From Seleniivibrio woodruffii (GTDB taxonomy: Bacteria > Chrysiogenota > Deferribacteres > Deferribacterales > Geovibrionaceae): DNA of 64,000 nucleotides. Shown here one piece after another: positions 58,527-60,749 of this stretch. The stretch lies in the NCBI RefSeq assembly GCF_029267515.1, contig NZ_JAJUIS010000002.1, forward strand, positions 124,001 to 188,000, given 5' to 3'. A model generated the notes under the pieces. It saw only the letters and a program-made list of their open reading frames with translations, ran no database searches and had not been told where the DNA came from. A program made the position numbers and the translations under genes. Each line of letters begins with the position of its first letter. Position 1 is the stretch's first letter.

Positions 58527-58973
58527 ATGACAGAAGAAACAATTGACAAAGCTGCGGAAGCCGCTGTACGCCTTTTTAAAAGCGGATATTCCTGCTCCGA
58601 GGCAGTACTTCTTGCGTTTGAAATGAATACTGAAAAAAAGTTTTCTGAAGATGCAAAACGCGGTATGAGCGCCTATGTTGAAGGTCTCAGCGGTTCAGGC
58701 TGCGTTTGCGGCGCCCTTGCCGGAGCAGTATTTGTTTTAAGCACCATGGGTGGCAGACTCAGCACAGACGAACCCATAAATAAACTGAAACATGCCGTAA
58801 GCACACTTCACGACGATTTCCGCAAAGAGTTTTCAAGCGCCTGCTGCCGCGTGATAACCGCTAAGTCTGCAAAGCTGTTCGGTATAGGCAAGTTCAACAC
58901 CTGCCCTCTCACAGTTGAGTTCTGTATCAGAAAAATAATGATTCTTGCTTCAGAAAACGAATGGATAAAGTGA
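58527..58973 (+). CDS. C_GCAxxG_C_C family protein
   Basis: A 148-residue helical, probably redox-active or metal-binding protein. The family motif is visible: GSGCVCGALAG (residues 56-66), with Cys23, Cys106-Cys107, Cys126 and Cys133 completing the C...C..C pattern. Family members occur mainly in anaerobes; some precede or fuse to redox proteins, but the function is not established. The ATG has GGAGG about 9 nt upstream. Sharing an operator with an iron-type binding protein hints at a metal or redox link. Confidence 0.9.
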   Translation: MTEETIDKAAEAAVRLFKSGYSCSEAVLLAFEMNTEKKFSEDAKRGMSAYVEGLSGSGCVCGALAGAVFVLSTMGGRLSTDEPINKLKHAVSTLHDDFRKEFSSACCRVITAKSAKLFGIGKFNTCPLTVEFCIRKIMILASENEWIK

Positions 58974-58974
58974 C

Positions 58975-59052
58975 AAAAAAAATCCCGGTTACATGCTTTA
59001 AGGGGGGAGGAGGGATAAAGCATAGAAATAACCGGGCAATAGTCTGTTTGGT
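58975..59052 (-). ncRNA. Candidate small RNA with anti-Shine-Dalgarno loop
   Basis: Predicted transcript of about 78 nt on the minus strand, with its own promoter (59059-59086). It has a short 5' tail and then a hairpin with two 8-bp helices (59029-59036 with 58984-58991; 59016-59023 with 58993-59000), an asymmetric internal loop, and a 15-nt C-rich apical loop (59001-59015) that includes CCUCC. The stem is followed by A and eight U, a proper intrinsic terminator. The loop is complementary to the GGAGG ribosome-binding sites used by many genes here. cimA, upstream on the same strand, has its own terminator. Confidence 0.5.
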
Positions 59053-59058
59053 ATTTTT

Positions 59059-59086
59059 ATTATAGTCTTCTTTATATAATTTTCAA
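59059..59086 (-). promoter_or_regulatory. Promoter of the candidate small RNA
   Basis: Read on the minus strand: TTGAAA, 16 bp, TATAAT. It lies in the gap between the cimA terminator and the RNA hairpin and serves no protein-coding gene on that strand nearby. Confidence 0.55.
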
Positions 59087-59165: not shown

Positions 59166-60749
59166 TCAGTTTGTGCGCTCTTTGTCTTTCAGAAGTTTAT
59201 ATTCCATTGAATCCATAAGAGCCTGGTATGAAGCGTCTACAATGTTTGCAGCGACACCAACCGTTCCCCATGTGCTGTCCTTGTCTTTTGATTCGATAAG
59301 AACTCTGGTAACGGCTTCCGTTCCCTCGCCCGATGTAAGGATGCGAACCTTATAGTCAACCAGTTCCATATCCGATATGCGGGGATAGAATTTTGAGAGA
59401 GCTTTGCGGACGGCTTTGTCCAAAGCGTTTACGGGACCGTTTCCGGATGCCGCTGTATGCTCCTGTTCATCGCCAACAACTATTTTTACAGTCGCTTCCG
59501 CCATTGGACTGTCAGATTCACCATGCTTTTCGTCGATGACTCTGTAGCTGACAGAGTCGAAGAAAGGCGTGAAGGTTCCCATGGTCTTTCTCATGAGAAG
59601 TTCGAACGAAGCCTCTGCCCCTTCATACTGAAAGCCTTTGTTTTCAAGCTCTTTCAGCCTGTCAACAACGGAGTTCACCTTCTGGTCGTTACTGTCTATA
59701 TCCAGACCGAAGTCCTTTGCCTTGTAAACAAGGTTGGACTTGCCCGAAAGGTCGGAAAGCAGAACTCTCTGTTTGTTGCCAACCAGTTCGGGTTCTATGT
59801 GTTCGTAGGTTCTGGCGTTTTTAAGGATGGCGCTGACATGCACCCCGCCCTTGTGCGCAAAAGCAGCGCGTCCGACATAAGGCTGGTGTATGTTGTGTTT
59901 CAGGTTGCCAAGCTCGTTGACATATCTGGATACACTGCGAAGTCTGTTCAGTTTGTCTGCCGGAACACACTCATATCCATACTTCAACTGAAGGTTTGGA
60001 ATTACAGAGCAAATATTTGCGTTGCCGCATCTTTCTCCGTAACCGTTTATCGTTCCCTGCACCTGAGTTATACCGTTCACAACAGCCATAACGGAGTTTG
60101 CAACCGCGCAGTCGCTGTCGTTGTGGCAGTGTATGCCAAGTGGATAGTCGCCTGTCACTTCTCGAAGCTGACGGATGATATCCGCAAGTTCCTGAGGCAT
60201 GGTACCGCCGTTTGTGTCGCAAAGGATGATGCAGTCGGCTTTCGCCTCCATGGCAGCCTTGACGGTTTTAATGGCGTATTCTTTGTTCGCCTTAAAGCCG
60301 TCGAAAAAATGCTCCGCATCATAAAAAGCCTTGTCCACCTTTGATTTAAGGTATGACACTGAGTCATAAATTATATCAAGGTTCTGCTCAAGTTCAATTT
60401 TAAGAGCTTCAGTAACGTGCAGATCCCATGTCTTTCCGAAGATGGTCAGGTTGGGAACTTCAGCCTCAAGAAGCGCCTGAATGTTTTCGTCCGTGTCGCA
60501 AGTTCTTTTCGCACGTCTTGTGCTGCCGAACGCCGCAACATGGTCAATGGGTACGGATGATTTTTTAACATCTCTGAAAAACCCGATATCTCTGGGGTTG
60601 GAACCTGGCCAGCCGCCTTCGATATATCTTATGCCGAAATCGCAAAGTGCTTCAGCTATTTTCACCTTATCTGCTATGGTGAAGTTAACGTCCTCCGACT
60701 GAGTGCCGTCTCTCAGCGTGGTGTCGTATATCTCTATCTTTTTTGACAT
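59166..60749 (-). CDS. cimA: (R)-citramalate synthase
   Basis: A 527-residue DRE-TIM metallolyase that condenses pyruvate and acetyl-CoA, the first step of the citramalate route to isoleucine. Seen: IEIYDTTLRDGTQSEDVNFT, YIEGGWPGSNPRD, FGKTWDLHVTEAL, CDTNGGTMP, GIHCHNDSDCAVANS, GTINGYGERCGNANICSVIP (in part) and a C-terminal LeuA-type allosteric domain (about 370-520). Features FGKTWDLH and GWPGSNP separate it from LeuA. Last gene of hom-kinase-lysC-cimA, 18 bp after lysC. Confidence 0.95.
   Translation of the reverse strand: MSKKIEIYDTTLRDGTQSEDVNFTIADKVKIAEALCDFGIRYIEGGWPGSNPRDIGFFRDVKKSSVPIDHVAAFGSTRRAKRTCDTDENIQALLEAEVPNLTIFGKTWDLHVTEALKIELEQNLDIIYDSVSYLKSKVDKAFYDAEHFFDGFKANKEYAIKTVKAAMEAKADCIILCDTNGGTMPQELADIIRQLREVTGDYPLGIHCHNDSDCAVANSVMAVVNGITQVQGTINGYGERCGNANICSVIPNLQLKYGYECVPADKLNRLRSVSRYVNELGNLKHNIHQPYVGRAAFAHKGGVHVSAILKNARTYEHIEPELVGNKQRVLLSDLSGKSNLVYKAKDFGLDIDSNDQKVNSVVDRLKELENKGFQYEGAEASFELLMRKTMGTFTPFFDSVSYRVIDEKHGESDSPMAEATVKIVVGDEQEHTAASGNGPVNALDKAVRKALSKFYPRISDMELVDYKVRILTSGEGTEAVTRVLIESKDKDSTWGTVGVAANIVDASYQALMDSMEYKLLKDKERTN

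Follow-up and report, generated by a model that had tools for sequence, protein, structure and literature searches.

The alpha-r14/NfeR1 and cuckoo (CcsR) RNAs of the Alphaproteobacteria carry an anti-Shine-Dalgarno loop motif, CCUCCUCCC, by which mRNAs are silenced at their ribosome-binding sites (PMC10746234, PMC3927594). For NfeR1, this kind of motif has been proven to block ribosome-binding sites (PMC10746234), and CcsR-like RNAs often adjoin a DUF1127 gene (PMC10253847). In RepG of Helicobacter pylori the seed is the C/U-rich loop of the terminator hairpin, and this loop suffices for repression (PMC8295292). The NmsR sibling sRNAs of Neisseria meningitidis contain UC-rich unpaired regions, one of them a loop, that complement Shine-Dalgarno sites, and they act on TCA-cycle mRNAs, among them a succinate dehydrogenase mRNA (PMC5362039). 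A 10-nt anti-Shine-Dalgarno motif is also shared by SisA-D, sRNAs of one Caulobacter crescentus genome (PMC12559287).

A predicted RNA with a loop of this kind is located on the minus strand of the window, the 64,000-nt stretch of the Seleniivibrio woodruffii genome that was analyzed here. Its loop includes CCUCCUCCC, unpaired in the predicted fold. In the alpha-r14 and cuckoo RNAs the motif hairpins number two to four and their stems vary, whereas the RNA described here has a single motif hairpin, placed in the terminator itself, with constrained stems. No DUF1127 gene was detected by Pfam among nine neighbors from the families f1, f2, f3, f5, and f8 (families are numbered, f1 being the family of the window). 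RepG is the nearest parallel in its way of working but has a further stem-loop and a phase-variable G-repeat target, whereas the loop core of the RNA described here is fixed as CCCUCCUCCCC, its hairpin is the only one, and its host possesses Hfq. Across 385 genomes, every member identified by the covariance model belonged to the order. The NmsR sRNAs differ by their three stem-loops and two UC-rich regions, and no sequence relation to them was seen (no Rfam match at this locus). To judge by these likenesses, the RNA most likely works like NfeR1 and the cuckoo RNAs, RepG, and NmsR; membership in any of these groups is not supported. The kind of mechanism is already known from other phyla and the RNA family itself is undescribed, a literature search having found no described small RNA for the Deferribacterales. 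The RNA could be the first riboregulator in this order with a clear phylogenetic range, and it suggests that the strategy of a C-rich anti-Shine-Dalgarno loop is also used beyond its known phyla, in a very compact form.

Comparison among genomes shows a stand-alone gene that is conserved and structured and whose loop is constrained. It likely encodes a trans-acting, single-hairpin sRNA whose anti-Shine-Dalgarno loop would occlude G-rich ribosome-binding sites, probably together with Hfq; we infer its expression, its pairing with mRNAs, the repression, and the need for Hfq. According to this model, an RNA of about 60–110 nt, depending on the species, would be made from its own sigma-70-type promoter and would end at its own terminator hairpin. 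The long loop of the terminator would expose as its seed the near-invariant CCCUCCUCCCC, a copy of the 16S anti-Shine-Dalgarno sequence, and this seed would pair with mRNAs that have unusually G-rich ribosome-binding sites (GGGGAGGA, GGGAGGAGGG). This pairing would block 30S binding, and Hfq would probably sit on the U tail. More tentatively, and with some doubt, the RNA may be an sRNA reduced to its terminator, one hairpin serving as terminator, Hfq tail, and anti-Shine-Dalgarno seed, and may control, throughout the order, the mRNAs whose ribosome-binding sites are richest in G; it would have been lost or gained with Hfq. In Deferribacter-like genomes the predicted transcript is about 60 nt long, with a leader of 3 nt.

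Organization of the Locus

A sequence-only reading of the window had described a complete minus-strand unit with a TTGAAA-16-TATAAT promoter, a transcript of about 78 nt, and a two-helix hairpin followed by eight U. The promoter is present in the sequence at 59086–59059 and consists of a −35 element (TTGAAA, 59081–59086) and a −10 element (TATAAT, 59059–59064) that are separated by a 16-nt spacer and match 11 out of 12 consensus positions. The small RNA (78 nt, 58975–59052, minus strand) has its +1 at 59052 and ends with the T8 run, both ends being predicted; sequence and fold confirm the proposed unit as a predicted transcript. Its U8 tail (58975–58982, minus strand) is part of the terminator and the presumed Hfq site. 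The 5′ leader (59037–59052, minus strand) is near-identical within the genus and differs in other genera. On the plus strand, a weak stem resembling a terminator (59031–59052 of the window) overlaps this leader; it may terminate the mRNA of the neighboring C_GCAxxG_C_C gene and could explain the conservation of the leader within the genus.

The upstream neighbor is cimA (59166–60749, minus strand), a gene of the citramalate synthase family with the Pfam domains HMGL-like and LeuA_dimer. It ends at 59166 and carries its own terminator (59159–59132, minus strand), distinct from the RNA gene, and the RNA unit is therefore separate from cimA, as had been proposed. The convergent neighbor, the C_GCAxxG_C_C gene (58527–58973, plus strand, identified as an ORF and by Pfam), ends 1 nt before the end of the RNA. 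The RNA had been said to reach the end of this gene; the two do abut, without overlapping, the stop codon ending at 58973. With the gene ending there, its plus-strand mRNA would enter the full complement of the RNA, as expected of a cis-antisense regulator or 3′-end partner of the C_GCAxxG_C_C gene. Such a role is very improbable given that this gene is found near the RNA in only two genera of one family and that the RNA is kept beside other genes in four other lineages; as a general function, the suggested 3′-end pairing with this mRNA is thus not supported.

Structure of the Predicted RNA

The fold of 83 nt displays a 9-pair outer stem (5′ arm 59028–59036, partner 58992–58984), a 4-nt bulge, an 8-pair inner stem (5′ arm 59016–59023, partner 59000–58993), and a 15-nt apical loop, UCCCUCCUCCCCCCU (59001–59015), all on the minus strand. 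The outer stem is supported by the fold and by compensatory changes, and the inner stem as well as the 3′ arms of both stems (58984–59000) by the fold and the alignment. The energy of the hairpin is −23.4 kcal/mol compared with a mean of −9.7 for shuffled sequences (z = −6.1), and none of 200 dinucleotide shuffles was as stable. The hairpin is single, and the predicted RNA in f2 and f5 leaves no room for another.

The loop is all-pyrimidine and, as the earlier reading had stated, contains CCUCC, and it is the only one with CCUCC among the 86 hairpins before T-runs that a loose scan of the window returned. The proposed seed is the core CCCUCCUCCCC at 59004–59014 (minus strand), identical in about 22 out of 26 copies. 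The sequence CCUCCU is the core of the 16S anti-Shine-Dalgarno sequence; the loop includes it and complements ribosome-binding sites of the GGGGAGGAGGG type, and blocked ribosome binding would be expected from this loop sequence. The complementarity of CCUCC to GGAGG sites that had been pointed out is real for pyrR (ACGGAGG) and pyrC (AAGGGAGGAATTG), but a 5-nt Shine-Dalgarno match is unspecific.

Distribution across Genomes

A covariance search over related genomes had been suggested as a check. Two models were built, the first from 15 copies and the second from all 26. With the first, exactly one copy was found in each of 26 genomes within six families of the Deferribacterales: f1 (12/12), f2 (4/4), f3 (3/3), f5 (2/2), f7 (3/3), and f8 (2/2). 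This model detected none in f4 (0/5), f6 (0/15), or f9 (0/2); f10 (0/3) likewise lacked a true copy. Across 385 genomes, all members scored at least 53.8 bits with the second model and everything else at most 31.5 bits. In the window, the covariance-model match spans 59036–58976 with 91.6 bits. A DNA search likewise recovered the element in all 12 members of f1 and in several other families, and at laxer settings the non-carriers returned weak matches only, mostly too short for the loop. Taken together, the undescribed small-RNA family is very probably real.

Exact matches to GCTTNNNCCCTCCTCCCCYCT numbered 21 in a scan of 84,980 species genomes; eight were in Deferribacterota records, and no credible relative was found outside the phylum. 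The 13 stretches beyond the Deferribacterota did not exceed 17.7 bits under the covariance model and were taken as chance matches. A match in G048, a genome of the same phylum, was rejected as a family member as it is a plain terminator without the loop, and a second exact GGGGAGGAGGG in the S. woodruffii genome was set aside since it lies inside a coding region for amino-acid biosynthesis. A comparison with Rfam identified no family at the gathering score in the window, and the best minus-strand matches at relaxed settings were below every cut-off.

Conservation of the Stem and the Loop

Within the genus, 75 out of 80 columns over 59056–58977 are identical among the five species while the flanking 20-nt windows mostly show 0–8 identical columns out of 20, the upstream counts being lowered by an upstream insertion in one of the five members. 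This block matches the extent of the predicted RNA. In the alignment of the 26 copies, 97.6% of the cells are paired and changes on both sides occur in 4 out of 14 pairs, counts that lean toward the model because the alignment was fitted to it; sliding the pairing partners by one column reduces the pairing to less than 50%. RNAalifold recovered the identical two helices from this alignment with four compensatory pairs. An independent MAFFT alignment of 15 copies gave 97.9% paired cells, with both sides changed in three pairs. Loss of the stem pairing in close relatives had been named as an outcome that would count against the small RNA; all relatives retain the paired stem.

The loop core CCCUCCUCCCC is unchanged in 22–23 out of 26 copies and the remaining loops are C-rich with CUCC. 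One member of f2 (L062) retains the core; in the other three the C-rich loop is shifted or shorter and still holds CCUCCCC or CCCUCCCC. The U run is at least five nucleotides long in all 26 copies. The lower stem (CCCGG...CCGGGAUUUUU) is invariant too, for which pairing by the loop would not by itself account.

A frame of 71 codons on the minus strand begins at 59023, inside the hairpin, and could be read as a small protein-coding gene. It passes through the terminator, its ATG is missing from f3 and f5, from two out of the three copies in f7, and from one copy in f2, and the sequence changes follow the base pairing, which together leave a coding function with a negligible probability.

Promoters and Gene Neighborhoods

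The TTGAAA and TATAAT motifs and their 16-nt spacing are identical, and at the same distance from the RNA, in all five members of the genus and are found further upstream in four more f1 genomes. Promoter-like pairs are located at fixed, family-specific distances in f2, f3, f5, and f8. The promoter is thus kept across the whole genus and in most other lineages, its loss having been the second outcome to watch for; the score was weak or no promoter was found for L013, L017, L020, L024, and L025.

The genes beside the RNA change from family to family. They are cimA in f1, cimA and pyrC in f7, panD in f8 (plus a hemerythrin gene in one f8 genome), an NlpC/P60 gene in f2, a glycosyltransferase gene in f3, and a HAD phosphatase gene in f5. 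In one genome (G004), extra sequence lies between the RNA and cimA and the RNA is intact. The terminator form of the RNA and its position downstream of cimA in f1 and f7 would fit an element that is merely the intrinsic terminator of cimA or of a neighbor, with no role of its own. However, cimA has its own terminator, a promoter is located just upstream of the RNA, and a terminator has no need for a fixed 11-nt loop. The own promoter in most copies and the neighbors that vary by family therefore argue against a cimA terminator, and we regard a terminator without further function as highly unlikely. The claim of a stand-alone small RNA receives strong comparative backing from the one copy per genome (26 genomes), the compensatory changes in the stem, the near-invariant loop, the own promoter in most copies, and the changing neighbors.

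Co-occurrence with Hfq

Hfq (PF17209) was identified in all 26 carriers of the RNA and in none of the 20 non-carriers of the order, and a canonical 74-aa Hfq ORF is present in the S. woodruffii genome (L314:287-511). In f9 and f10, Hfq is present and the RNA is absent. An SdhAB tree, the sampling of which left out f5 and part of f4, separates carriers from non-carriers by a single branch (support 93/92), and the RNA/Hfq split therefore counts as one event. The co-occurrence is consistent with Hfq dependence of the predicted RNA and is not proof of such dependence.

The lack of any Hfq match in f4 and f6 (20 genomes) represents a lineage-wide absence within the order. Separately, a minus-strand ORF of 174 codons next to a response-regulator gene (L313:481-1005; G000:C11:245380-245904) encodes two Hfq domains, of which the N-terminal is degenerate, and similar two-domain Hfq ORFs were found in most Hfq-bearing genomes of the order.

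Candidate Targets

The target ranking covers the 67 start regions of the window; their duplexes with the loop have a median energy of about −8 to −9 kcal/mol. In the same genome, sites picked by pattern reach −16.3 (sdhB), −20.7 (livF), and −23.1 kcal/mol (a ferredoxin gene). The mean energy of the sdhB-loop duplex is −15.3 kcal/mol in 23 carriers compared with −9.9 in seven non-carriers, and the plain anti-Shine-Dalgarno strength of sdhB differs likewise (−11.3 and −8.3); general Shine-Dalgarno strength accounts for part of the G-richer sdhB site in carriers. The GGGGAGGA-ATG sites of livF, found in five genomes, fall within codons of the upstream gene (GGG GAG GAT), and protein constraint may therefore explain them. 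The ferredoxin site has 10 base pairs and is found in two species only. Overall, the three genes are only suggestive as targets: long stretches of complementarity upstream of ATG are hardly more frequent than reversed-pattern controls, and none of the candidates, the best of which were pattern-picked, displays convincing order-wide conservation.

The lack of a conserved mRNA target among the candidates, the sequence invariance of loop and lower stem over the order, as in a protein site, and the second, longer Hfq-type protein in most members of all Hfq-bearing families of the order would agree with a real small RNA of the sponge or titration type, in which the C-rich loop captures a protein or a second RNA instead of ribosome-binding sites. 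We consider this unlikely, as the conserved sequence exactly complements G-rich Shine-Dalgarno sites, RNAs already known to carry this motif have mRNAs as their targets (PMC10746234, PMC3927594), and the loops in f2 move the motif but retain C-rich runs. The occlusion of ribosome-binding sites remains the preferred reading.

A Second Unit in Seleniivibrio

A second sRNA-like unit was observed on the minus strand between htpG and a NFACT-like gene (L105, about 1430–1620; G000:C10:2274-2464, near 2345). It consists of TTGACA and TATATT boxes, CCCTCCTCCCTCC, and a terminator, and it is conserved in four out of five members of the genus; searches of the other genomes returned no copy. Four genomes have GGGAGGAGGGTTATG sites that were initially considered as a gene start; these sites are the opposite strand of this unit and were discarded. 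The presence of CCCTCCTCCC in the second unit resembles SisA-D in that several motif-sharing sRNAs occur per genome; SisA-D belong to another lineage, and the likeness concerns the shared motif. The second unit and the RNA beside cimA have CCCUCCUCCC in common.
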